DNA from: Pseudonocardia alaniniphila
GTDB taxonomy: Bacteria; Actinomycetota; Actinomycetes; Mycobacteriales; Pseudonocardiaceae
DNA length: 64,000 nucleotides
Assembly: GCF_022524485.1 (NCBI RefSeq)
Contig: NZ_JAKXMK010000015.1
Location: 62,001-126,000, forward strand
Reading direction: 5' to 3'
The notes under the pieces are model-generated. The model ran no database searches. It saw only the letters and a list, made by a program, of their open reading frames with translations, and was not told where the DNA came from. Below, piece after piece: positions 23,232 to 41,377 of the stretch; the stretch's first letter is position 1; each line of letters starts with the position of its first letter. Both the position numbers and the translations under genes were made by a program.

Positions 23232-24794
23232 GTGAACCGAGAGCTGACCACTCGGGCCGCTCCGCTGCGGATGCGTCCGCGGGTGGTCGTGCCCGCCGAC
23301 ACGCGTCTTCCGCGTGACGCCCCGGCCGGTACCGAGGCGGTGATCGTCGGCGGCGGGGTGGCCGGAGTCACAGCCGCGGTCGTGCTCGCCGAACGCGGCG
23401 TGGCGGTCACGCTGCTGGAGGCCGCACCCACGCTCGGCGGTCGCCTCGGCGCGTGGCCCCACACCCTGCCCGACGGCACGGAGCAGGTGGTCGAGCACGG
23501 TTTCCACGCCTTCTTCCGCCACTACTACACGTGGCGCTCCGTGCTGCGCCGGATCGACCCGGAGCTGAGCTTCCTTCGTCCGGTCAGCGGCTATCCGGTG
23601 ATCTCCCGGGAGTACCCGCCCGAGCAGCTCACGGGCCTGCCCGGGGCGCCCCCGCTCAACCTGCTCACGCTGTTCGCCCGCTCCCCCAGCCTGGGTCTGC
23701 GCGATCTCCTCGGCTCCCGGCAGGCGCTGGCGGCCGAGCTGCTCGCCTACGACCGCGAGCGCACCACAGCGCTGTTCGATGCCGTACCGGCAGCGGAGTT
23801 CCTGGCCGGTCTGCGGATGTCCGACCGCGCGCTGGCGATGCTCTTCGAGGCGTTCGCACGGTCGTTCTTCGCCGAGCCTGCGGCGCTGTCCTCGGCCGAG
23901 CTGATCGCGATGTTCCACTACTACTTCCTCGGCAACCCCGAGGGCATCACGTTCGACGCACCCGTCGCCGACCACCTCACCTGCATCTGGGAGCCCCTGC
24001 AGGCCCTGCTGGAGAAGCGCGGTGCGGAGGTCCGCACGTCCACCTCGGCGAGCGCGATCGTTCCGGCCGACGGCCATCGCTGGCGCGTCGAGCTCTCCAA
24101 CGGTTCCACGCTCGACACCCGCCACCTGGTGCTGGCCGTGCACCCGGGTGCCCTACGGAGCCTCTTCGCGGCGTCACCGCGCGCCGCCGAGGCCGCGCCG
24201 CGCTTGGCGAGGAAGGCGGCCGCGCTCCCCCTGGCCCCGCCCTTCGCCGTCACCCGACTCTGGCTCGGCTCCGACGTCGCAGCCGAACGTCCCGTGTTCA
24301 ACGCGGTCAGCCGGGAACCCACGCTCGACTCGGTCACCGTCTACTCCCGGCTGGAGCAGCCGTGCGCCGAGTGGGCGGCACGCACCGGCGGGGCGGTGCT
24401 GGAGCTGCACTCCTACGCCTGCTCCGCACCCGACGCCCACACCGCCACCGCTCGCATGCGCGCCGAGCTCGCCGCGCTGTGGCCGGAGACGCGCGACGCG
24501 CCTGTGGCGCATCTCCAGCAGCGGTACGAGGCCACGGCCCCCACTTTCCCGCCGGGCGGTGCCGGCGCCAGGCCCACGGTCAGCGGAGACGCCCGCGGGA
24601 TCCGCGTGGCCGGCGACTTCGTCGACACGCCCTTCCTCACCGGCCTCATGGAGCGCGCATCGGCGTCGGGAGTGCTGGCGGCCAACGACGTGCTCGCCGA
24701 GGTCGACGCCGGTCCGGAGCAGATCCTGAGCGTGCCGCAGCGCGGGTTGCTCGCCGGGCTGCTACCTCGCCGCTCCGCCGCGTGGCGCGGATGA
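23232..24794 (+). CDS. FAD-dependent amine-oxidase-fold oxidoreductase, carotenoid desaturase / isorenieratene-synthase-like
   Basis: A 520-residue flavoprotein. The dinucleotide motif AVIVGGGVAGVTAAVVLAERG begins near residue 36, followed by the LGGRLGAW arginine loop. The segment VEHGFHAFFRHYYTWRSVLRRIDP closely recalls CrtU-type aryl-carotenoid desaturase/methyltransferases, and IRVAGDFVDTPFLTGLMERA is the C-terminal FAD contact. It may modify carotenoid rings, but no other carotenoid gene is present, so the substrate is open. GTG 23232 lies 6 nt after TAGGGT (23220-23225), suggesting a leaderless mRNA. Its stop overlaps the start of a DNA polymerase gene (ATGA). Confidence 0.75.
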   Translation: MNRELTTRAAPLRMRPRVVVPADTRLPRDAPAGTEAVIVGGGVAGVTAAVVLAERGVAVTLLEAAPTLGGRLGAWPHTLPDGTEQVVEHGFHAFFRHYYTWRSVLRRIDPELSFLRPVSGYPVISREYPPEQLTGLPGAPPLNLLTLFARSPSLGLRDLLGSRQALAAELLAYDRERTTALFDAVPAAEFLAGLRMSDRALAMLFEAFARSFFAEPAALSSAELIAMFHYYFLGNPEGITFDAPVADHLTCIWEPLQALLEKRGAEVRTSTSASAIVPADGHRWRVELSNGSTLDTRHLVLAVHPGALRSLFAASPRAAEAAPRLARKAAALPLAPPFAVTRLWLGSDVAAERPVFNAVSREPTLDSVTVYSRLEQPCAEWAARTGGAVLELHSYACSAPDAHTATARMRAELAALWPETRDAPVAHLQQRYEATAPTFPPGGAGARPTVSGDARGIRVAGDFVDTPFLTGLMERASASGVLAANDVLAEVDAGPEQILSVPQRGLLAGLLPRRSAAWRG

Positions 24795-26383
24795 GGATCG
24801 CGCTCGACCCCGGGCCGCGCGACGGCCCGGCCCGGATCCAGCGGCTCGACCACGACGGCGCGCCGCTCGGATCCCCGGAGACGCTCGGGCCGCTGGCCCG
24901 CGTCGCCGACATGGAGCGTGACAACGCTCCGCGGTGGGTGGTGGCGCGAGCGCGCACCTATCGGCGGTTGCTCGCCGCCGGGGTACAGGTGGCACGCGCC
25001 CATGACGTCGAGCTGGTGGAAGGGCTTCTCGTGGGAGCGGCGGGCCGCTTCGGAGATCCGCACGGGCTCGCCGCGGCGCTCGCCCGGCTCGATGGGCGCC
25101 CGCCCGAGCCCGACCCGCCCGACGCGGACGACGGTCCGCCGGCCTTGTTCGAGACCACGGCGGCTACCGACGAGCTGGCCGGCCTGGTGGCCGTACACGC
25201 CGCGCAGCAGCAGGCCCTCGCCGCGGCCGCGCCGGGGATGCGGCTCTTGGCCGCAGCGGAGTCGGCCGGGATGCTCGTGGCCGAGGAGATGACCTGCCAC
25301 GGGCTCCCGTGGCAGGCCGACGTGCACGACCGGCTGCTCACCGATCTGCTCGGCCCCCGCCCCGTTCTCGGTGGCCGGCCGCCGAAGGTGCAAGCGCTCG
25401 CCGACGAGGTGGTCGCCGCGTTCGGTGGCCGCGCACTCAACCCCGACTCGCCTGCCGAGGTGATGCGCGCGTTCGCCCGGGCCGGCTACGAACTGCAGAC
25501 CACCCGGTCATGGGAGCTGCGGCAGATCGACCACCCGGCCGTGGAGCCTCTGCTCGCGTACAAGGAGCTCGCCAGGCTGCACTCCGCACACGGATGGTCG
25601 TGGCTGCGCAGCTGGGTCGCCGACGGCCGGTTCCGGCCCGAGTACGTGGTCGGCGGTGTCGTGTCCGGCCGCTGGGCCACCCGCGGTGGGGGTGCGCTGC
25701 AGATCCCGCGTGCCCTTCGCCCGGCCGTGCGCGCCGATCCGGGATGGCGCCTGGTCGCGGCCGACGCCGCCCAACTCGAGCCCCGCGTGCTGGCGGCACT
25801 GTCGGGCGACCATGCGCTCGCCCCCGGTGAGGACGACCTGTACTCCGCGCTTTCCGTCCGCGAGTTCGGCGGCGAACGCGCCACGGCCAAGCTCGCGCTG
25901 CTCTCGGCGATGTACGGACAGACCTCCGGCGGTGCCGGCACGTTGCTGGCCACTCTGCGCAAGCGGTTCCCGGCGGCGATGGCCTACGTCGAGGACGCCG
26001 CGAAAGCGGGCGAGGAGGGCAGGCTCGTGCGCTCGCACCTCGGGCGCACCTGCCCGCCGGCACGGCCGGGCCACGAGCAACCGGCCGCCGCACGGGCGCG
26101 TGGCCGGTTCACCCGCAACTTCGTCGTGCAGGCCACCGCGGCCGAGTGGGCGCTCGTGCTGCTGGCCGAGCTGCGGCTGTCACTCCGGGCGGCCGGCAGC
26201 CCGGCGCAGCTGGTGTTCTTCCAGCACGACGAGGTGCTGCTGCACGTGCCTGCCGAGGCGGCCGAGGAGACCGCGGCAGCCGTCCGCGCCGCAGCGAGGA
26301 CGGCAGGCCGCCGGCTCTTCGGCGCGTCGCCGGTGCAGTTCCCGATGCACCCGCGGATCGTCGAGAGCTACGACGAGCGCTGA
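24791..26383 (+). CDS. Short family A DNA polymerase with degenerate exonuclease region
   Basis: A 530-residue protein of the actinobacterial 'bifunctional 3'-5' exonuclease/DNA polymerase' group, much shorter than PolA (~900) and lacking the 5' nuclease domain. Polymerase motif A reads AADAAQLEPR (near 325) and keeps the catalytic Asp and Glu. Motif B reads RATAKLALLSAMYG, keeping R, K and YG but with Leu in place of E. coli Phe762. Motif C is QHDE (near 479). The N-terminal part lacks a clear set of exonuclease acids. Its role is probably repair or translesion synthesis; this is inference. The ATG overlaps the preceding stop codon, so the two genes are translationally coupled. Confidence 0.87.
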   Translation: MRIALDPGPRDGPARIQRLDHDGAPLGSPETLGPLARVADMERDNAPRWVVARARTYRRLLAAGVQVARAHDVELVEGLLVGAAGRFGDPHGLAAALARLDGRPPEPDPPDADDGPPALFETTAATDELAGLVAVHAAQQQALAAAAPGMRLLAAAESAGMLVAEEMTCHGLPWQADVHDRLLTDLLGPRPVLGGRPPKVQALADEVVAAFGGRALNPDSPAEVMRAFARAGYELQTTRSWELRQIDHPAVEPLLAYKELARLHSAHGWSWLRSWVADGRFRPEYVVGGVVSGRWATRGGGALQIPRALRPAVRADPGWRLVAADAAQLEPRVLAALSGDHALAPGEDDLYSALSVREFGGERATAKLALLSAMYGQTSGGAGTLLATLRKRFPAAMAYVEDAAKAGEEGRLVRSHLGRTCPPARPGHEQPAAARARGRFTRNFVVQATAAEWALVLLAELRLSLRAAGSPAQLVFFQHDEVLLHVPAEAAEETAAAVRAAARTAGRRLFGASPVQFPMHPRIVESYDER

Positions 26384-29980: not shown

Positions 29981-30155
29981 GCTGCGCCAACGACGACGAG
30001 GCGATCACGTTACGGCGGATCACATCAACGGTCATCGCAGTCACTCGCTCAGGCGGGCCGCACGACGTTCTCGACATGTCCGTTCTCGATACCGTCATTC
30101 CGCCCGGATGCACCGGCGGCCCAGCGCTGGCAGGGTCGACACCGAGGTGAGAGCC

Positions 30156-31682
30156 GTGGAGCAGGAACAGCCGGGCGCCGGGCCGGTGCTGATCGTCGGC
30201 GCAGGCCCCACCGGACTCACCGCCGCCCTCCTGCTGGCCCGGCTCGGGGTTGCCTGCACCGTGCTGGAACGGCGGGCCGGGATCCACCCGCTGCCACGCG
30301 CCGTGCATCTCGACGACGAGGGGGCGCGGATCCTGCAGCGGGCCGGCATCGGCGACGCGTTCGCCGGGATCAGCATCCCTGCGGCGGGCCTGCGGCTGCT
30401 CGACGCCCGGCTGCAGCCCTTCGCGCAGTTCCGCCACGACCGGCCCGCCGGCGTGCACGGCCATCCTGAGTCCAACCTGTTCCATCAGCCGGATCTCGAG
30501 CGCCTGCTGCGTGAGGAGCTGGCCCGTCGGCCACTGGCCCAGCTGCGCGAGTACACCGAGGTCAAGGACGTGAGCCGGCCCGACGGGCGTCCCGAGGGCG
30601 TGCTCGTGCACCTCACCGACGCGCGCACCGGCGTACGCGAGCAGCTGCGCGCGGCGGCGGTGCTCGGGTGCGACGGCGCCGGCAGCACCGTCCGCGACGC
30701 CATCGGTGCCCGGCTTCGTGACCTGCGGTTCACCGAGCGGTGGTTCGTCCTCGACGCCCGCTCGGACCGGCCGCTCCCCACCTGGGGTGGGGTCGACCAG
30801 ATCTGCGACCCGCGCCGCGCGGCCACGTTCCTCCCGCTGCCCGGCGACCGGTACCGGTGGGAGTTCCGGATGCGGCCCGGCGAGACCGCCGAAGACATGA
30901 TGCGCCCGGAGCGGATCGCCACACTCACCAGACGATGGGGGACGCGGGTCGGCGACCTCGATGTACTGCGGGCCGGCGAGTACACGTTCCGTGCGCGGAT
31001 CGCCGACCGGTGGCGGCGCGGGCGGGTGCTGCTGCTCGGTGACGCCGCCCATCTGACGCCCCCGTTTATCGGACAGGGCCTCGGGGCCGGGCTGCGCGAT
31101 GCGCACAACCTCGCCTGGAAGCTCGCCGCCGTCTTGGAGGGCGGTGACGAGCACACGCTGCTCGACAGCTACCAGGCCGAGCGCGGGCCGCACGCCGAAG
31201 CGGTGATCCATGGAGCGGTCCTCGTCGGTCACGCCATGACCGGTGGCCAGGATCTCGCGGCCGCGCTGCGCCGCCCGGCGGCCGGCGTGCTCCTGCGGAT
31301 TCCGGGCGTGCGGACGGCGGCGCAGCGCGGCATCGCGACGCGCTACGGCCCGGGGCCTCTCGTCGAGCGCCGCCGGCACCGCCGGGATCTGTCCGGGACC
31401 CCTTGCCCGCAGCCGACCGTCCGGGTGGACGGACGCCAGGCACGGCTCGACGAGGTCCTCGGCGACGGCTACGCACTCCTCGCCACCGGCTCGGCGCCGC
31501 GTTCGGTGCTGGTCAGGGCACGCCGGCTCGGTGCCCGGACGCTGCATCTCGGCCCCGGCCCGCACGTCGGCGACGTGACGATCGAGGAGGGCGAGGAGCT
31601 GCTCGCCTGGCTGGAGCACGGCCGGGCGTCAGCCGCTCTGCTGCGCCCCGACCGCATCGTGCTGGCAACAACCCCGCGCTGA
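30156..31682 (+). CDS. FAD-dependent aromatic hydroxylase (MhpA/PheA-like)
   Basis: A 508-residue group A flavin monooxygenase. The motifs are LIVGAGPTGLTAALLLARLG (FAD/NAD site), CDGAGSTVRDAIGA (DG) and LLLGDAAHLTPPFIGQGLGAGLRDAHNLAWKL (GD), with a C-terminal thioredoxin-like region typical of MhpA-type hydroxylases. I chose GTG 30156 (VEQEQPGAG) because GAGGTGAGA lies just before it; a frame from 30108 is possible. It is convergent with the type III PKS gene. A hydroxylase, a PKS and a methyltransferase together recall the SrsABC phenolic-lipid quinone pathway, so a role in hydroxylating the PKS product is a reasonable inference. Confidence 0.85.
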   Translation: MEQEQPGAGPVLIVGAGPTGLTAALLLARLGVACTVLERRAGIHPLPRAVHLDDEGARILQRAGIGDAFAGISIPAAGLRLLDARLQPFAQFRHDRPAGVHGHPESNLFHQPDLERLLREELARRPLAQLREYTEVKDVSRPDGRPEGVLVHLTDARTGVREQLRAAAVLGCDGAGSTVRDAIGARLRDLRFTERWFVLDARSDRPLPTWGGVDQICDPRRAATFLPLPGDRYRWEFRMRPGETAEDMMRPERIATLTRRWGTRVGDLDVLRAGEYTFRARIADRWRRGRVLLLGDAAHLTPPFIGQGLGAGLRDAHNLAWKLAAVLEGGDEHTLLDSYQAERGPHAEAVIHGAVLVGHAMTGGQDLAAALRRPAAGVLLRIPGVRTAAQRGIATRYGPGPLVERRRHRRDLSGTPCPQPTVRVDGRQARLDEVLGDGYALLATGSAPRSVLVRARRLGARTLHLGPGPHVGDVTIEEGEELLAWLEHGRASAALLRPDRIVLATTPR

Positions 31683-31725
31683 CCCTGCGAGCCGCCCGTT
31701 CCGGCCCCGAGACCGCACCCCGTGC

Positions 31726-32799
31726 TCAGCCTTGCCGCAGCAGCGCGACGTACAGCGTCAGGCCGGGCCCGAATGCCATGGCCACGACGGCTCGACCCGC
31801 TCGGGAGCGACCGGCGGCGCGCAGCGCGTCGAGCACGAGGAGAACGGTGGCCGACGAGCAGTTGCCACGTTCGGCGAGTACCGCCTTCGAGGCGTCCAAC
31901 GCATCCGCGGGAAGGGCGAGCTGCTCGGCGACCGTGCTCAGGATCCGCGGCCCACCGGGGTGCACAGCCCACCCGTCGACGTCCGCCGTGGTCAGCCCGT
32001 GCCGCCCGAGCACCTCCGACACCATGGCGCGCACGTGCCGCGCGAGCACCCGGGGCACCTCGGGCGAGAGGCCCATGCGGAAGCCCAGGTCGGTGACCTC
32101 CCAGGTCATGTGGTCGGCGGTCGCCGCGTCGGTGAGTGCGGCGATCTCGAGGACTTCCAACCCGCGCCGTGCCCCCGGCGCGTCCGGCAGCACGACGATC
32201 GCGGCGGCGGCGTCGCCGAACAACGCGTGGGAGACGACCTGGCCGAGGTCGATGCGGCCGTGGTCGTCGGCGGGCGGCTGCACGTGCAGCGACGTGAGCT
32301 CCAGGCACAGCACGACAGCGGGCCGGTTGCGGGCGACGACGTAGTCGCGGGCCGCGCCGAGCGCCGGGATCGCCGCGTAGCAGCCCATGTGCCCGATGAA
32401 CAGCCGCTGCACGTCGGGTGCCATCCCGAGGTCGGCGGCCACACGGATGTCCAGGCCGGGCGTGACGTATCCGGTGCACGAGGCCACCACGAACAGGCCC
32501 ACCTCGTCAGGGGCGAGGCCGGCGTCGGCGAGCGCCGCGGCCACGGCCTCCTTGCCCAGCGGGAACGCCTCGCTGACGTATCGCCGCATTCGCTCGCCCG
32601 TCGACCAGCCCGAGACGTCCTCGTCCGCCGGGTTCACCGCGGCGTGCCGGTGCTGCACGCCGGCGCTGCGGAAGATTCGCTCCGCCATCCGGTCGCCCGC
32701 GAAGTGGCGCGCGAAGAACCCGTCCCACATCTCGATCTGGCGGAGGGCGCAGCCGGGCACGGCGGCGCCGAAGCCCGCGATGTACCCCGATCCGCTCAC
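31726..32799 (-). CDS. Type III polyketide synthase (chalcone/stilbene synthase family)
   Basis: A 357-residue homodimeric ketosynthase that condenses malonyl-CoA units onto an acyl starter without an acyl carrier protein. The catalytic triad is complete: Cys140 in GHMGCYAAIPA, His280 in AVHPGGPR and Asn313 in RGNCSSAT. The C-terminal GFGPG-type loop reads MAFGPGLT. Similar bacterial enzymes make alkylresorcinols, alkylpyrones or tetrahydroxynaphthalene; the product cannot be told from sequence alone. The start is GTG 32799, 28 bp after the methyltransferase stop, so the two are co-transcribed. Confidence 0.95.
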   Translation of the reverse strand: MSGSGYIAGFGAAVPGCALRQIEMWDGFFARHFAGDRMAERIFRSAGVQHRHAAVNPADEDVSGWSTGERMRRYVSEAFPLGKEAVAAALADAGLAPDEVGLFVVASCTGYVTPGLDIRVAADLGMAPDVQRLFIGHMGCYAAIPALGAARDYVVARNRPAVVLCLELTSLHVQPPADDHGRIDLGQVVSHALFGDAAAAIVVLPDAPGARRGLEVLEIAALTDAATADHMTWEVTDLGFRMGLSPEVPRVLARHVRAMVSEVLGRHGLTTADVDGWAVHPGGPRILSTVAEQLALPADALDASKAVLAERGNCSSATVLLVLDALRAAGRSRAGRAVVAMAFGPGLTLYVALLRQG

Positions 32800-32827
32800 G
32801 GCGTCGACTCCCCGCCGGTCCGGGGCG

Positions 32828-33559
32828 TCAAGCCCGCCTCCCGACGGCCTGGAACAGCACGGCGGTGGTCGGCACCGTGACCATGGGCACCGTGTCGGCC
32901 CGCCCGGTGAGCCAGCGGGCGAGCCCCGACAGCGACGGACGGATGCCGCGCAGCTGCAACGTCACTCCGTGGCGTGCGCACTCCCGCACGAGGAGGCCGC
33001 GGTCGACGAACAGCGCTGGGTCGTGGATGCCGGGTGGCGCCGCGCCGGGTATGCGTTCGGCCAGCGTCACGGCGACGAAGCGGCTCAGCGCCGTGGCGGC
33101 GAGGGTGTCGATCACGAGCAGGCCGCCGGGACGCAGCAGCCGGCAGGCCTCGCGCACGGCGCCCGGCAGGTCGGGTACGTGCTCGAGGATCTCCCCCGCC
33201 GCGACGACGTCCGCGCAGCCGTCGGCCAGGGGCACGGCGGTGACGTCCCCGCGTACGACGGTGACCCCGTGCGCCGCGGCTTGGACCAGCGCGGACGCGC
33301 CGATGTCCACGCCGACATGCCGGTAGCCCGCGCCGGCGACGTGGGGGGCGAGCAGACCCGCCCCGCAGCCCAGATCGACCAGGACCGCGCCGGGTCGGGT
33401 CGCCGGTGGCACCAGCGCGCCGCGTGCGGCCACGAGCCAGTGGAGCATCGCGAAGGGGCCTCGCGGTTGCCACCAATGCTGCGCGAGATCGTCGTACTGC
33501 GCCGGATCGTTGCGCGCTAGCTCGCTGGTGCGGTGGTTCCGGAGCGCGGGCACGAGCAT
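32828..33559 (-). CDS. Class I SAM methyltransferase, UbiG-like
   Basis: A 243-residue methyltransferase. Motif I is VLVDLGCGAGLLAPHVAG, then VGVDIGAS, the post-II acid EILEHVPDLPGAV, and RPGGLLVIDTL. The N-terminus (NDPAQYDDLAQHWWQPRGPF) and overall shape match UbiG-type O-methyltransferases of quinone synthesis. It probably methylates the phenol or quinone produced by the downstream type III PKS. ATG 33559 is the start (GTG 33553 possible). It is divergent from the UbiA gene, with only 21 bp between the start codons. Confidence 0.88.
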   Translation of the reverse strand: MLVPALRNHRTSELARNDPAQYDDLAQHWWQPRGPFAMLHWLVAARGALVPPATRPGAVLVDLGCGAGLLAPHVAGAGYRHVGVDIGASALVQAAAHGVTVVRGDVTAVPLADGCADVVAAGEILEHVPDLPGAVREACRLLRPGGLLVIDTLAATALSRFVAVTLAERIPGAAPPGIHDPALFVDRGLLVRECARHGVTLQLRGIRPSLSGLARWLTGRADTVPMVTVPTTAVLFQAVGRRA

Positions 33560-33566
33560 CAGGCTG

Positions 33567-33575
33567 CCAGACTGG
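33567..33575. promoter_or_regulatory. Candidate bidirectional promoter core between methyltransferase and UbiA genes
   Basis: The palindrome CCAGACTGG supplies a -10-like CAGACT on the plus strand (7 nt before ATG 33581) and a -10-like CAGTCT on the minus strand (9 nt before ATG 33559). Both promoters must use -35 regions inside the opposite gene. Confidence 0.4.
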
Positions 33576-33580
33576 GCCGC

Positions 33581-34456
33581 ATGCGGCCTGTCGCCGCGAC
33601 CACGGTCGCGCTGCTGCGCTCCTCGCACCCTGAGCCCACCGTTGCGGTCACCGTCATGGTCACGGCGCTCGCCGTCACCACGGGGCGCGACCTGCCCGGG
33701 GTGCTTCTGGTGGTCGCGGCGGTGCTCACCGGGCAGCTGTCGATCGGCTGGCTCAACGACCTGCTGGACGCCGAGCGTGACGTCGCCGTGGGGCGCCAGG
33801 ACAAGCCGGTGGCCGCAGGCGCCGTCACGACACGGACCGTGGCGGTGGCCACGGTGCTCGCCGCGGTGGCCTGCGTGCCGCTCTCGCTCGCGTCCGGTAT
33901 CGCCGCCGGGCTGGTGCACATCGTCGCCGTCGCGGCCGGGTGGGCCTATGACCTGGGGATGAAGTCCACCGCGCTCTCGGTACTGCCCTACCTGGTCTGT
34001 TTCGGGCTGCTACCGGTCTTCGTCGTGCTCGGGCTACCGGGCGCGCCGGTGCCGCCGTGGTGGCTCCCGGCGGCCGGCGCGCTGCTCGGCGCCGGTGCGC
34101 ATTTCGCGAACGTGCTGCCCGACCTCGCCGACGACGCGGCCACCGGTGTCCGCGGCCTGCCCCACCGGATCGGGATGCTGGGCAGCCAGGTCGCCGCCGC
34201 AGTGCTGCTGTTCGCGGCCACGGTGCTGCTCGCGCTGAACGCGCCTCTGCCGGCCGTGTTCAGCTGGGGCGTCCCCGTGCTCGCCGTGGTGATCCTCACG
34301 GCCGGGTTCCGTGCCGGGCGCCGACCAGGCTCGCGCGCACCGTTTCGTGCGGTGCTCGTGGTGGCCGCCGTGGCGGTGGTGCTGCTGGTGGCGTCGGGCC
34401 CCGCCCTGCTCGCCCAGCCCGGGGTCGCTGCCGCCGTCAGCCGCGGCCCAGGGTGA
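33581..34456 (+). CDS. UbiA family prenyltransferase
   Basis: A 291-residue membrane aromatic prenyltransferase with about nine hydrophobic segments. The first Asp-rich motif is NDLLDAERD and the second is DLADDAATGVRGLP, both needed for Mg-diphosphate binding. It attaches an isoprenoid chain to an aromatic acceptor. ATG 33581 starts the conserved part. The gene shares its tiny upstream region with the methyltransferase and overlaps the convergent reductase gene by 20 bp. In this context the acceptor may be the type III PKS product. Confidence 0.92.
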   Translation: MRPVAATTVALLRSSHPEPTVAVTVMVTALAVTTGRDLPGVLLVVAAVLTGQLSIGWLNDLLDAERDVAVGRQDKPVAAGAVTTRTVAVATVLAAVACVPLSLASGIAAGLVHIVAVAAGWAYDLGMKSTALSVLPYLVCFGLLPVFVVLGLPGAPVPPWWLPAAGALLGAGAHFANVLPDLADDAATGVRGLPHRIGMLGSQVAAAVLLFAATVLLALNAPLPAVFSWGVPVLAVVILTAGFRAGRRPGSRAPFRAVLVVAAVAVVLLVASGPALLAQPGVAAAVSRGPG

Positions 34457-35570
34457 CGTACGCGGCAGCCACCCGGGCCAGGGCGGCCACCGGCGCCGTG
34501 CCGCGCCCGAGGCCGAGGTCCACGGCGGCGTCGAAAACGGACTGGTGGCGTTCTGCGGCGGTGACGGCCGCGTCGAGGAACCGGGCGTTCGACACCAGAC
34601 GGGAGAGGAAGGCTCCGTGCTGGTGGTGCAGGGCGAAGGAGCGCGTCATGGCGCGCCGGTGGGCCGCGCCCGCGGCTGCTCCCAGGAGCGCGGCACGGCC
34701 GGCGAGGACCCCGGAGGCCACCGCGTCGAAGATCCCCTCACCCGTCAGCGGGTTGATCATCGCGGCGGCGTCACCGGCCAGCAGTACCCGGCCGTCGGGA
34801 TGGTGGCGCGGCCCGGTGGAGAGCGGAAGGTGGTGCCCGCGCACGGTCTCCGGGGTGGGCTCGTGTCCGGGCAGCAGCGTGCGCATGGCATCGAGCAACT
34901 CCTGCCGGGACCCCGCTCCGCGGCGGTCGAACACCCCGTATCCCACGTTGGATCCGCCGCCGGGCAGCGGGAACGACCAGGCGTAGGCCGGGTAGCGGCC
35001 GCGGGCGAACTCGATCACCAGCGCGTCGGGTCGCAGCGTGGTCGGCGCGTAGCCGCGGATCGCGACCGCCGTTGCCGCTGACGGGGTCTCGGGCGCGCCC
35101 AGCAGGCGACGGACCGTCGAGTTCGCGCCGTCGGCACCGATCACGACCCGCGCCCGGATGCTTCCGTCGAGCACCACCTCGTCGGCGCGGACGTCGACGC
35201 GGCGCACCCGATGGCGGCGCAGCTCCGCGCCGCGCGCGACTGCGGCGGAGACCAGCTCCGCGTCGAACACCGCCCGCGGAATCACCCGGTTGGGACGCGC
35301 ACAGATGCGCGAGACCAGGCGCCCGCCCGGGCTGCGCAGCTGGAGCCGGGGCACAGCGGGACCCAGACGGGCCAGGTTCGGCACACCGAGGGCCTGGAGC
35401 AGCTCGAGCACCTGGGCGGCTATGCCGTCGCCGCAGGTCTTGTCGCGCGGGAACGCCGCCGCGTCCAGGAGCAGAACACGCGCGTCGGGGCGCAGCTGCA
35501 GCACCCGTAACGCGCTTGCCGACCCTGCCGGTCCGGCGCCCACAACGGCGACGTCGTACGTCTCGTCCAC
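34437..35570 (-). CDS. Geranylgeranyl-reductase family flavoprotein
   Basis: A 377-residue FAD protein. The motifs are VAVVGAGPAGSASALRVLQL, FPRDKTCGDGIAAQVLELL (typical KxCGxG of this family), VIGADGANSTVRRLLG, YPAYAWSFPLPGGGSNVGYG (the YxWxFP substrate motif) and LLAGDAAAMINPLTGEGIFDA. Relatives saturate prenyl chains of menaquinone, archaeal lipids or chlorophyll. Beside UbiA, reduction of the attached prenyl chain is a natural inference. GTG 35570 is the start. The 3' end overlaps UbiA by 20 bp, a tail-to-tail overlap. Confidence 0.92.
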   Translation of the reverse strand: MDETYDVAVVGAGPAGSASALRVLQLRPDARVLLLDAAAFPRDKTCGDGIAAQVLELLQALGVPNLARLGPAVPRLQLRSPGGRLVSRICARPNRVIPRAVFDAELVSAAVARGAELRRHRVRRVDVRADEVVLDGSIRARVVIGADGANSTVRRLLGAPETPSAATAVAIRGYAPTTLRPDALVIEFARGRYPAYAWSFPLPGGGSNVGYGVFDRRGAGSRQELLDAMRTLLPGHEPTPETVRGHHLPLSTGPRHHPDGRVLLAGDAAAMINPLTGEGIFDAVASGVLAGRAALLGAAAGAAHRRAMTRSFALHHQHGAFLSRLVSNARFLDAAVTAAERHQSVFDAAVDLGLGRGTAPVAALARVAAAYVTLGRG

Positions 35571-39170: not shown

Positions 39171-40190
39171 TCATGGACGTCCGGTCACCAGCGGCCAGAG
39201 TCCCTCGGGTCCGGCGGCCAGTGCGGCCGCTCCGATCTCGCTGTTCCACTCGGCGTCCGCGCCGTCCTCGTCACGCCACGCCCACAGGCGGGTGGTGAGG
39301 AGCCGCAGGTCGTGCTCGCGGGTGAAACCGATGGCCCCGTGCACCTGGTGCGCGATCCGGGCGACGGCACCAGCGGCCTCGCCGGTGCGCGCCTTGGCCG
39401 CGGCGACAGCGAGCCGCGATGCCGGGTCCGCGAACCCGTCCGCGGTGACGGCTGCAGCCGCGGCGGACGCCGCCGCCGATGCCGCGGCCACCTCGGCCGC
39501 GGCCAGGGCGAGCTGTTGCTGCACCGCCTGGAACCGGCCGATCGGGCGGCCGAACTGCACCCGCTCGCCCGCGTAGCGCACAGCGGCGGCGAGTGCACCT
39601 CGCGCGGCCCCGGCGAGCAGCTGGGCCCGCCCGAGCGCGGCGCGCAGCCGGAACTCTTGCGTCGCCCCCTCCGGCACGGCTGCGACGGCACCGGAGGGCA
39701 CCTCGCCGTCGACGACGACCGCGTCGCGCGGCTCCTCCGCAAGGTTGCTGCCGTCGGTGACGGTGATCTGTTCCGGCCCGAGCAGGACGACGTGGTGCGG
39801 GGCCAGCACGGCGATCCCGGCCGCGGCGCGCGCCCACGGCACGCGTTGGAGCGTGCCGCGGACCGTCGAGCCCTCGACATCCAGCGTTGCGGTCACGGCC
39901 GTCAGCGGCCCGGCAGGCACGCCGATGCCCGCGGCGTGCAGCAGCCAGCCCGCCAGCAGATCGGTCTCCACAAGGGGAACCCGCGCGGCGTACGCACCGG
40001 CCTCGGCCAGCACCACCGCCGCGTCGGAGAAGCTGCCCTCGCTCCCACCCGCGTCGGACGGCAGGGTCAGCCGGGCGAGTCCGGTGCCTTCGAGGGTCTT
40101 CCACAGCTCGGCGTCGAACCCCGTGCCCGCGTCCCGGGCGTCGGCGAAGATCGACTCCGCCAACTCGCGCAGCTCCGAGTTGTCGGTCAT
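39171..40190 (-). CDS. Acyl-CoA dehydrogenase, second (short) subunit
   Basis: A 339-residue flavoenzyme subunit of the acyl-CoA dehydrogenase fold. The N-terminal helical domain is followed by a short beta domain and the C-terminal GERVQFGRPIGRFQAVQQQLA and HQVHGAIGFTREHDLRLL segments. It is shorter than classic homotetrameric enzymes (~380) and is coupled to a second family member by a 4-bp overlap. Such pairs form alpha2-beta2 enzymes in steroid side-chain breakdown in actinobacteria (ChsE1-ChsE2-like). Whether this subunit carries the catalytic Glu needs an alignment. Confidence 0.9.
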   Translation of the reverse strand: MTDNSELRELAESIFADARDAGTGFDAELWKTLEGTGLARLTLPSDAGGSEGSFSDAAVVLAEAGAYAARVPLVETDLLAGWLLHAAGIGVPAGPLTAVTATLDVEGSTVRGTLQRVPWARAAAGIAVLAPHHVVLLGPEQITVTDGSNLAEEPRDAVVVDGEVPSGAVAAVPEGATQEFRLRAALGRAQLLAGAARGALAAAVRYAGERVQFGRPIGRFQAVQQQLALAAAEVAAASAAASAAAAAVTADGFADPASRLAVAAAKARTGEAAGAVARIAHQVHGAIGFTREHDLRLLTTRLWAWRDEDGADAEWNSEIGAAALAAGPEGLWPLVTGRP

Positions 40191-41377
40191 CGCAGCCCCA
40201 TTCCGCGCGCCACGATCCCGCGCAACACCTCGTTGGTCCCACCGCGCAGCGTGAAGCCGGGGGCGTGCAGCACCGCGTCGGCCAGAAGCCGTGCGTAGCC
40301 ACCCTCGGCAGCGGGGTCCGGCGGGATCGAGACGAGCAGCCGGGCCACGTCGATCACCTCGTTCTCATACCGCGTGCCGAGATCCTTCACCACGGCTGCG
40401 GCCAGCTCCGGCGCCTGCCCCGACTCGAGCGAGCCGGCCACGGCCAGCGACATCCGCCGCAGCGTCCACAGGCGGCTGACGAGGCCACCGAGCTCCTGAT
40501 GCGGCGTGGACCCATTGGCGAGAAGCTCCCCGACGAGAGCGGTGAGCAGCGGGAACGTCGAGAGGAACCGCTCCGGTCCGCTGCGCTCGAACGCGAGCTC
40601 GCTGGTGACCTGCCGCCAACCGGCGCCGATCTCACCGAGCACCATGTCGTCAGGCACGAACACGTTGTCGAACACGACCTCGTTGAAATGGTGTGCGCCG
40701 GTCAGCAGCGGGATGGGGCGGATCTGCACACCGGGCGAGTCGAGCTCGACGATGAACTGGGACAGGCCCGCGTGCCGGTTCTGTTCGTCACGGGGCGCGG
40801 AGCGGGCGAGCGCGAAGAAGGCATGCGCGTGGTGGGCGCCGGACGTCCAGACCTTCGTGCCGGTCAGCTCCCACCCACCGCTGACCTGCACGGCCTTGGT
40901 GCGCACGGCCGCCAGGTCGGAGCCGGCATCGGGCTCGCTCATCCCGATACCGAAGTACACCTCGCCCGCCGCGATTCCGGGCAGGAACTTGCGTCGCTGC
41001 GACTCGGTGCCGAACCGCATGAGACTGGGGCCGATCTGGCGGTCGGCCACCCAGTGCGCGGCCACCGGAGCACCGGCGGCGAGGAGCTCCTCGGTGACCA
41101 CGTAGCGGTCCAGCGGCGAGGCGCCATGGCCGCCGTACTCGACCGGGATGGTCATCCCGAGCCAGCCACGGCGGCCCAGTTCCTTCGTGAATCGCTCGTC
41201 CCAGCCCGAGAGCCACACGTCGGCGCGCGGTGTCCACGCTCCTGCGGCCCGCTCCTGCTCGAGGAAGGCCCGCACGTCGGCACGCAGCTGCGCCGCGCGC
41301 GGCGGGAGGTCGGTCGGGGGCGGCACCAGCGCCGGCAGCCGCGCCATCGTCTCCGTCACCACCCCATCCTGCGACAT
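40187..41377 (-). CDS. Acyl-CoA dehydrogenase, first subunit
   Basis: A 396-residue acyl-CoA dehydrogenase. It shows WLGMTIPVEYGGHGASPLDR, YFGIGMSEPDAGSDLAAVRTKA (FAD/substrate loop), GWELTGTKVWTSGAHHAHA (FAD contact), VFVPDDMVLGEIGAGW and the C-terminal GGTNEVLRGIVARGMGL. Catalyses alpha-beta desaturation of an acyl-CoA, passing electrons to ETF. The ATG at 41377 is used here; an ATG at 41347 with a closer GGAG is possible. Its stop overlaps the second subunit's start, supporting a heteromeric enzyme. It is divergent from an XRE regulator. Confidence 0.93.
   Translation of the reverse strand: MSQDGVVTETMARLPALVPPPTDLPPRAAQLRADVRAFLEQERAAGAWTPRADVWLSGWDERFTKELGRRGWLGMTIPVEYGGHGASPLDRYVVTEELLAAGAPVAAHWVADRQIGPSLMRFGTESQRRKFLPGIAAGEVYFGIGMSEPDAGSDLAAVRTKAVQVSGGWELTGTKVWTSGAHHAHAFFALARSAPRDEQNRHAGLSQFIVELDSPGVQIRPIPLLTGAHHFNEVVFDNVFVPDDMVLGEIGAGWRQVTSELAFERSGPERFLSTFPLLTALVGELLANGSTPHQELGGLVSRLWTLRRMSLAVAGSLESGQAPELAAAVVKDLGTRYENEVIDVARLLVSIPPDPAAEGGYARLLADAVLHAPGFTLRGGTNEVLRGIVARGMGLR

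Follow-up and report, generated by a model that had tools for sequence, protein, structure and literature searches.

The agq cluster of Actinoplanes missouriensis, whose original study is said to be Awakawa et al. 2011 (doi 10.1002/cbic.201000628), and the los locus of Micromonospora endolithica are the closest described systems to a five-gene locus of Pseudonocardia alaniniphila, which we analyzed at positions 30156-35570 of a 64,000-nucleotide stretch (contig NZ_JAKXMK010000015.1, positions 62,001 to 126,000; hereafter, the window). The agq products are reported as 6-alkyl-4-O-dihydrogeranyl-2-methoxyhydroquinones (PMC3569393). The type III polyketide synthase (PKS) AgqA is described as forming alkylresorcinols, to which prenyl and hydroxyl groups are subsequently added, and the function of the A. 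missouriensis lipid is called enigmatic (PMC10896814), while the agq membrane prenyltransferase, grouped with UbiA-like enzymes, is reported to O-prenylate a small polyketide in vitro (PMC4044012). In the M. endolithica locus, activation of losA reportedly gave 5-alkylresorcinols (PMC7587189). One survey describes an agq-like cluster in every Micromonospora strain that it covered (PMC5765111), such clusters are described as widespread in Saccharomonospora (PMC7990883), and Phytohabitans clusters, for which locus tags are given, have been called agqA-D orthologues (PMC7692728).

We show that the PKS, methyltransferase (MT), and UbiA-family prenyltransferase of the window correspond, both in their sequences and in their arrangement, to the core genes of agq/los-type loci. 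The locus is likely an agq-type pathway for a prenylated phenolic lipid, in a genus-specific variant with a non-orthologous aromatic hydroxylase (HYD) and an added prenyl reductase of the geranylgeranyl-reductase family (GGR). As judged from sequence comparison, what appears new here is the probable replacement by HYD, at the locus, of the acyl-CoA dehydrogenase-like gene (ACAD) and the addition of GGR, together with an isopentenyl diphosphate (IPP) isomerase gene (Idi) in 5 of the 15 clusters of the genus. An earlier sequence-only reading of this DNA knew of no characterized pathway with this gene set; agq is one in substance, although a description of the exact five-gene set was not found in the literature on Pseudonocardia and dihydrogeranyl lipids, as far as the accessible text of those sources goes.

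Results

Comparison with agq- and los-type loci

The five genes are open and consecutive by open reading frame (ORF) check, in the order HYD, PKS, MT, UbiA, and GGR, and family scans agree with the families that the sequence-only reading had named:

30156..31682, + strand: HYD, a flavin adenine dinucleotide (FAD) aromatic hydroxylase (group A, MhpA-like subfamily; NF004829, PF01494)
31726..32799, - strand: type III PKS, AgqA/LosA-type, proposed 5-alkylresorcinol synthase (matches the Chal_sti_synt N-terminal and C-terminal families)
32828..33559, - strand: MT, UbiG-like S-adenosylmethionine methyltransferase, proposed phenol O-methyltransferase (below the UbiG equivalog cut-off)
33581..34456, + strand: UbiA-family membrane prenyltransferase with both Asp motifs (PF01040)
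34437..35570, - strand: GGR, geranylgeranyl-reductase-family flavoprotein, proposed prenyl-chain reductase (TIGR02032)

HYD scores 534.9 bits against NCBIfam NF004829 (cut-off, 390) and also matches PF01494; translation could also begin at an in-frame ATG, at 30108. A PDB search with HYD at 1e-30 gave no match. Residues C140, H280, and N313 of the PKS, which we take to be catalytic, align with Pks11, and UbiA (78.2 bits against PF01040) carries the motifs NDLLDAERD and DLADD; the intact Cys-His-Asn triad and the paired Asp motifs, both read earlier from the letters, are thus in place. MT reaches 89.2 bits with the UbiG equivalog model, under its cut-off of 102.95, and GGR reaches 168.5 bits with TIGR02032, above the curated cut-off of 158.8, with FAD motifs GAGPAG, GADGANS, and GDAAAMINPLTGEG. 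HYD and PKS-MT are convergent. MT and UbiA, with probable starts at 33559 and 33581, are divergent, about 21 bases apart, and UbiA and GGR run into each other at their 3' ends, sharing 20 bases. Since the strands run + - - + -, the five genes are not one operon; they probably form four transcription units.

For comparison, we scanned named genomes; out of 505 relatives, the 80 best were taken, most of them from Micromonospora and Actinoplanes-like genera. The window has the divergent pair of MT (-) and UbiA (+), as do all 80 named loci, and the PKS was seen in 78 of the latter, the contigs of the other two being cut. In the window, the PKS lies on the MT strand, beyond MT, as in agq/los-type named loci. 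A PKS-ACAD-MT-UbiA layout is present in 73 of the 80, including both Phytohabitans loci (P. flavus L154 with a split PKS match); 2 are cut contigs, and ACAD is missing in 5, so it is usual, not universal, in agq/los-type clusters. By position arithmetic, we infer that L154 of Phytohabitans flavus and L208 of P. suffuscus are the agqA-D orthologue loci of PMC7692728. The M. endolithica locus L211 fits the los gene list (UbiA, methyltransferase, acyl-CoA dehydrogenase, and losA). The window PKS, MT, and UbiA are 61-63, 66-68, and 52-55% identical, respectively, to those of these three loci (62-63, 67-68, and 52-55% for P. flavus and M. endolithica alone), and the PKS is 61-64% identical to that of six named loci, two Phytohabitans and M. 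endolithica among them, and 63% identical to the presumed LosA of M. endolithica (identities to named loci refer to the best aligned segment).

Like the window, the agq cluster of A. missouriensis has a type III PKS and a membrane O-prenyltransferase, and its product is described as alkylated, methoxylated, hydroxylated, and O-dihydrogeranylated. The likeness passes through the Phytohabitans loci taken as orthologues, which share with the window the PKS, MT, and UbiA sequences and the divergent MT/UbiA pair; that the sequences compared are those of Phytohabitans and M. endolithica loci counts against it. Whereas the Phytohabitans loci have ACAD between PKS and MT, the window has HYD, a protein of another fold family, an added GGR, and another chromosomal place. 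The los locus has UbiA, the methyltransferase, and the type III PKS in the same order as the window; it differs in its acyl-CoA dehydrogenase gene where the window has HYD, in the absence of a GGR match from the 15.8-kb L211, and in its reported products, which are unprenylated (only losA having been put under a strong promoter). Because ACAD, a usual agq feature, is missing, we file the locus as an agq variant and not as a strict member.

Distribution of the five-gene set

All five genes occur together in 15 genomes of the genus (the window, L034-L037, L039, L041, L300-L306, and L309). Eight of these loci (L300-L306 and L309) were picked via HYD and thus give no measure of how often the PKS occurs without HYD; the rest come from an unselected sample of 297 genomes of the window's family. 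Among its 25 members of the genus, such a PKS is missing from 18 and present in 7, and all 7 carry the five genes. Nine of the other 14 five-gene clusters share none of the window flank genes looked for, and some flanks are common to five (L034 and L300-L303). Because the set recurs in 15 genomes, mostly without shared flanks, it is more than a chance arrangement; the same nine clusters led us to discard the window flanks as cluster members. The flank comparison under-reports MT, its query being one base off frame, and MT counts come from separate annotation scans; the flank marker "polA?" has wrong coordinates and an in-frame stop and served as a loose marker only. Named by eye, a family A DNA polymerase-like ORF and a phytoene-desaturase-like amine oxidase lie at 24750-26383 and 23232-24794 of the window.

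Viewed from UbiA, 104 loci were tagged (95 stretches, 60 from the window's family and 35 from other families, plus 9 of the 80 named loci), with L144 dropped beforehand and matches of 100 bits or less, and HYD matches of 200 bits or less, ignored. They comprise 67 with PKS, MT, and UbiA, 3 with PKS or MT only, 17 of a second kind, type B, and 17 with UbiA alone; the 67 divide into 44 with ACAD, 6 with HYD and GGR, 2 with HYD, and 15 with none of these. Scattering of the homologues had been named in the sequence-only reading as telling against a joint pathway, and in the reverse direction the genes largely stay together: 64 of the 297 family genomes have a PKS of at least 57% identity, and UbiA lies within 10 kb of it in 57 (weak or partial UbiA matches and second copies excluded; PKS matches of about 40%, in G176, in G190, and as a second one in G045, were left out before the 64 were counted). 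The seven genomes in which it does not speak against a fixed set. In one, G207, the genes are on two contigs of a fragmented assembly, and in the four inspected (L316, L317 of genus g19, L318, and L319), MT is still beside the PKS, with UbiA distant, on another contig, or not found.

Of 397 genomes sampled across the order, 239 have homologues of the window UbiA, the PKS not always being nearby, and viral contigs scanned with UbiA yielded no relative. A core locus of radA, disA, carD, ispD, and ispF stands beside UbiA in 24 of the 35 other-family loci (6 of 10 families; L113-L117, L120-L129, L137-L140, L142, L143, and L146-L148) and in 78 of the 80 named loci (L149-L228), and in 0 of 60 in the window's family. 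This suggests that the ancestral place of UbiA was beside isoprenoid-precursor genes and that it moved later. In six loci of family f16 (L126-L129, L142, and L143), UbiA is at the core place, with no PKS or MT match in the fetched stretch; a photolyase-like gene, named by eye, adjoins it in L127 and L142.

Proposed replacement of ACAD by HYD

An ACAD-like gene was not found in the window, and the best match in the whole genome is at 32%. Two acyl-CoA dehydrogenase genes at 39171-41377 were considered as the missing ACAD and rejected, since they match at 29% over part of the protein. Across 71 type A rows, HYD is present in 9, ACAD in 46, and both in 0 (Fisher p 2.7e-5, a value that ignores relatedness). 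In the UbiA tree, HYD arises twice, in the window's genus and in L048/L052. The HYD rows of the genus group with seven rows, six of them ACAD-bearing (Shimodaira-Hasegawa-like approximate likelihood ratio test [SH-aLRT], 91), and L048/L052 group with ten rows, all ACAD-bearing (SH-aLRT, 99). In the HYD tree, the L048/L052 proteins branch together with L307, a HYD that stands alone (100/100), which fits a second recruitment. We infer that the ACAD-like gene would be a ring hydroxylase and HYD its replacement, the exchange in the window's genus probably being one of two such swaps. All 111 ACAD-like proteins have Pro where acyl-CoA dehydrogenases carry Glu, at what we take to be the catalytic Glu position of the medium- and short-chain enzymes.

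Several findings pull the other way. The tree holds just two independent HYD changes, so few that a sign test cannot reach significance, and a single HYD clade is just marginally rejected (p-AU 0.0435, for a group picked after viewing the tree). Among NCBIfam models, the ACAD-like protein comes closest to the acyl-CoA dehydrogenase FadE16, without reaching its cut-off, and HsaA, DszC, and HpaH-type monooxygenases score lower. Its solved relatives are mostly acyl-CoA dehydrogenases, nitrososynthase and DnmZ also being among them; the top two are annotated just as acyl-CoA dehydrogenase type 2 domain proteins. ACAD could instead be a prenyl-chain reductase that GGR replaced in the window's genus, an alternative that stands there because HYD and GGR come together where ACAD is absent. 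L048 and L052, with HYD and with neither ACAD nor GGR, speak for HYD as the replacement and are the sole loci to do so.

HYD might also be a catabolic neighbor of the 3-(3-hydroxyphenyl)propionate type, with the pathway reduced to PKS-MT-UbiA, with or without GGR, and GGR in ACAD's place. Its nearest named subfamily, NF004829, is indeed catabolic, and in 15 of the 67 loci with PKS, MT, and UbiA there is no ACAD or HYD close by, which also weakens the case for a replaced ring hydroxylase. We nonetheless consider a catabolic HYD unlikely. The gene stays with the set across different arrangements and never co-occurs with ACAD, and it is present in L048/L052, which lack both ACAD and GGR. Across 40 genomes of the genus, window included, its homologues of at least 58% are found solely in full clusters (12 of 12; 8 weaker ones are not), and no ring-cleavage enzyme is among the five named window neighbors.

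GGR, Idi, and the prenyl side

A search for GGR homologues (E <=1e-60) gave 37 matches in 34 of the 297 family genomes. Twenty-six lie within 5 kb of a UbiA match, 7 in window-type clusters and 19 elsewhere; of these 19, the 12 that were fetched all belong to type B, in which UbiA accompanies PKS2, ICMT, and FMO2. The remaining 11 are not beside UbiA, and 10 of them were fetched. In seven congener stretches (L284-L290), GGR (65-78%) is present without PKS, MT, UbiA, or HYD; six of the genomes lack both a PKS and a UbiA of this kind, and in the seventh (G203) a type B cluster lies at a distance of about 13 kb. In the tree, lone GGRs of the genus and those from clusters are interleaved within a single clade. 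Because lone orthologues persist, interleaved in this way, GGR has, or had, another use.

L284 (5157-9635) retains the window flanks on both sides (PDSlike, ArsR, SRPBCC, and GDSL; PNPOx and two ACADs), and HYD-PKS-MT-UbiA is missing between GDSL and GGR. It is an apparent natural loss of the four genes; a site that was never filled is less likely. Four other congener loci, L286, L287, L289, and L290, appear to be natural losses as well, leaving Idi and GGR, which adjoin each other in all four (model test on L287).

These lone GGRs argue against a reductase devoted to the pathway and lend weight to another explanation, in which PKS, MT, UbiA, and HYD make a prenylated phenol and GGR is a genus-level isoprenoid reductase (acting, for example, on geranylgeranyl diphosphate or on a carotenoid or quinone precursor) and a chance neighbor. 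It accounts for L284, for the four lone GGRs beside Idi among the seven, for the single interleaved clade, and for the 11 of 17 type B loci without GGR. It accords less well with the presence of GGR in all seven PKS-bearing congeners of the unselected sample and in all eight HYD-chosen loci, despite rearranged HYD, Idi, and flanks, with the related GGR of 6 of the 17 UbiA-chosen type B loci, and with the separate MenJ-like GGR of the genome. We regard a chance neighbor as a possible but rather doubtful explanation. As GGR and Idi persist alone and most type B loci lack GGR, we treat GGR as a candidate reductase of the agq-type pathway that we favor, its dedication to that pathway being tentative.

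In the five clusters that have it (L035, L037, L041, L304, and L309), Idi lies between PKS and HYD. It is also beside UbiA in L297, a type B cluster of the window's genus, and the window genome has a copy (70%) elsewhere. Idi, UbiA, and GGR thus accompany two distinct PKS cassettes in the manner of a prenyl module, which suggests that UbiA, GGR, and sometimes Idi may constitute an exchangeable prenylation module.

Relation to SrsABC and to quinone pathways

The type B loci L087, L089-L093, and L294-L299 bring together UbiA, PKS2, an ICMT-type methyltransferase, the FAD monooxygenase FMO2, and GGR. They resemble the window in UbiA (46-60% identical), in GGR in several loci (about 50%), and in the Idi of L297; they differ in a PKS about 34-39% identical to that of the window, in a methyltransferase of another family, and in another monooxygenase. 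The PKS2, ICMT, and FMO2 trio is presumably kin to SrsABC of Streptomyces griseus. The sequence-only reading had likened the PKS, methyltransferase, and hydroxylase to SrsABC, and an SrsABC-type alkylquinone pathway with unrelated UbiA and GGR would call for the same functional classes, namely, a type III PKS, a methyltransferase, and a hydroxylase. Yet the window has no ICMT match and no FMO2-type monooxygenase (the FMO2 query finds just GGR, at 30%), its MT is of another family, and its PKS shares only 36% identity with PKS2, the type found alongside ICMT and FMO2. On these grounds, SrsABC membership was dismissed and the pathway judged extremely improbable here, agq and los being closer.

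The alternative membrane quinone proposed in the sequence-only reading finds no support. A chain-reduced benzoquinone with a C-linked prenyl group, acting as an additional redox carrier in the membrane, gains some appeal because a UbiG-like MT and UbiA, side by side with an aromatic hydroxylase and a reductase of the MenJ superfamily, look like parts of a quinone pathway. However, the genome has six UbiA-family matches, among them MenA above cut-off at C36, where a MenJ-like GGR also lies (235.2 bits, below the MenJ cut-off of 700). The window UbiA scores 25 bits with the MenA-type model (cut-off, 346) and the window GGR 101.6 bits with MenJ (cut-off, 700), and a menaquinone function was rejected on these scores together with the MenA and MenJ-like proteins elsewhere. 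On chemical grounds, an aryl prenyl ether of the agq type should not be oxidizable to a quinone while prenylated, and the agq product is described as such an O-prenyl ether. In addition, a PKS present in just 7 of 25 members of the genus is unlike an essential quinone pathway. With MenA- and MenJ-like proteins elsewhere, an ether as the agq product, and a patchy cluster, a respiratory quinone is not supported, and we think the benzoquinone carrier very unlikely.

Discussion

In the agq-type pathway that we propose, the PKS would condense a long-chain fatty acyl-CoA with three malonyl-CoA to a 5-alkylresorcinol, a step reported as shown for the homologue LosA (PMC7587189). HYD, with FAD and NAD(P)H, would then add a ring hydroxyl in place of the ACAD-like flavoprotein, and MT would O-methylate one hydroxyl. 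The prenyl group that UbiA would attach is short, probably geranyl, and by analogy with agq its link is probably through oxygen; GGR would saturate one or more of the chain's double bonds, with Idi, where present, contributing to precursor supply. That HYD, MT, UbiA, and GGR act on the PKS product here, and in this order, is proposed by analogy. Such a pathway would yield a (dihydro)geranyl ether of an alkyl-methoxyhydroquinone, or something closely similar, and this predicted lipid would be an amphiphile of the membrane and not a respiratory quinone. The prenylated, chain-reduced phenol of the sequence-only reading is thereby well supported in its first part, a prenylated phenolic lipid, through the agq/los match; the reduced chain is plausible.

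A bolder version, which we offer as a long shot, is that the genus has rebuilt an agq-type lipid: HYD would act at a different ring position and GGR would fully saturate the prenyl group, giving an oxidizable C- or O-prenylated methoxybenzoquinone lipid that might have a redox or barrier function in the membrane, and an Idi-UbiA-GGR module would be exchangeable between two PKS cassettes.

HYD, standing where ACAD usually is, would represent a natural replacement, and it predicts that the ACAD-like gene of agq/los-type clusters is a ring hydroxylase. The apparent natural losses in L284 and other congeners permit genotype-to-lipid comparison between close relatives, and an exchangeable UbiA/GGR/Idi prenylation module may be of use in engineering.

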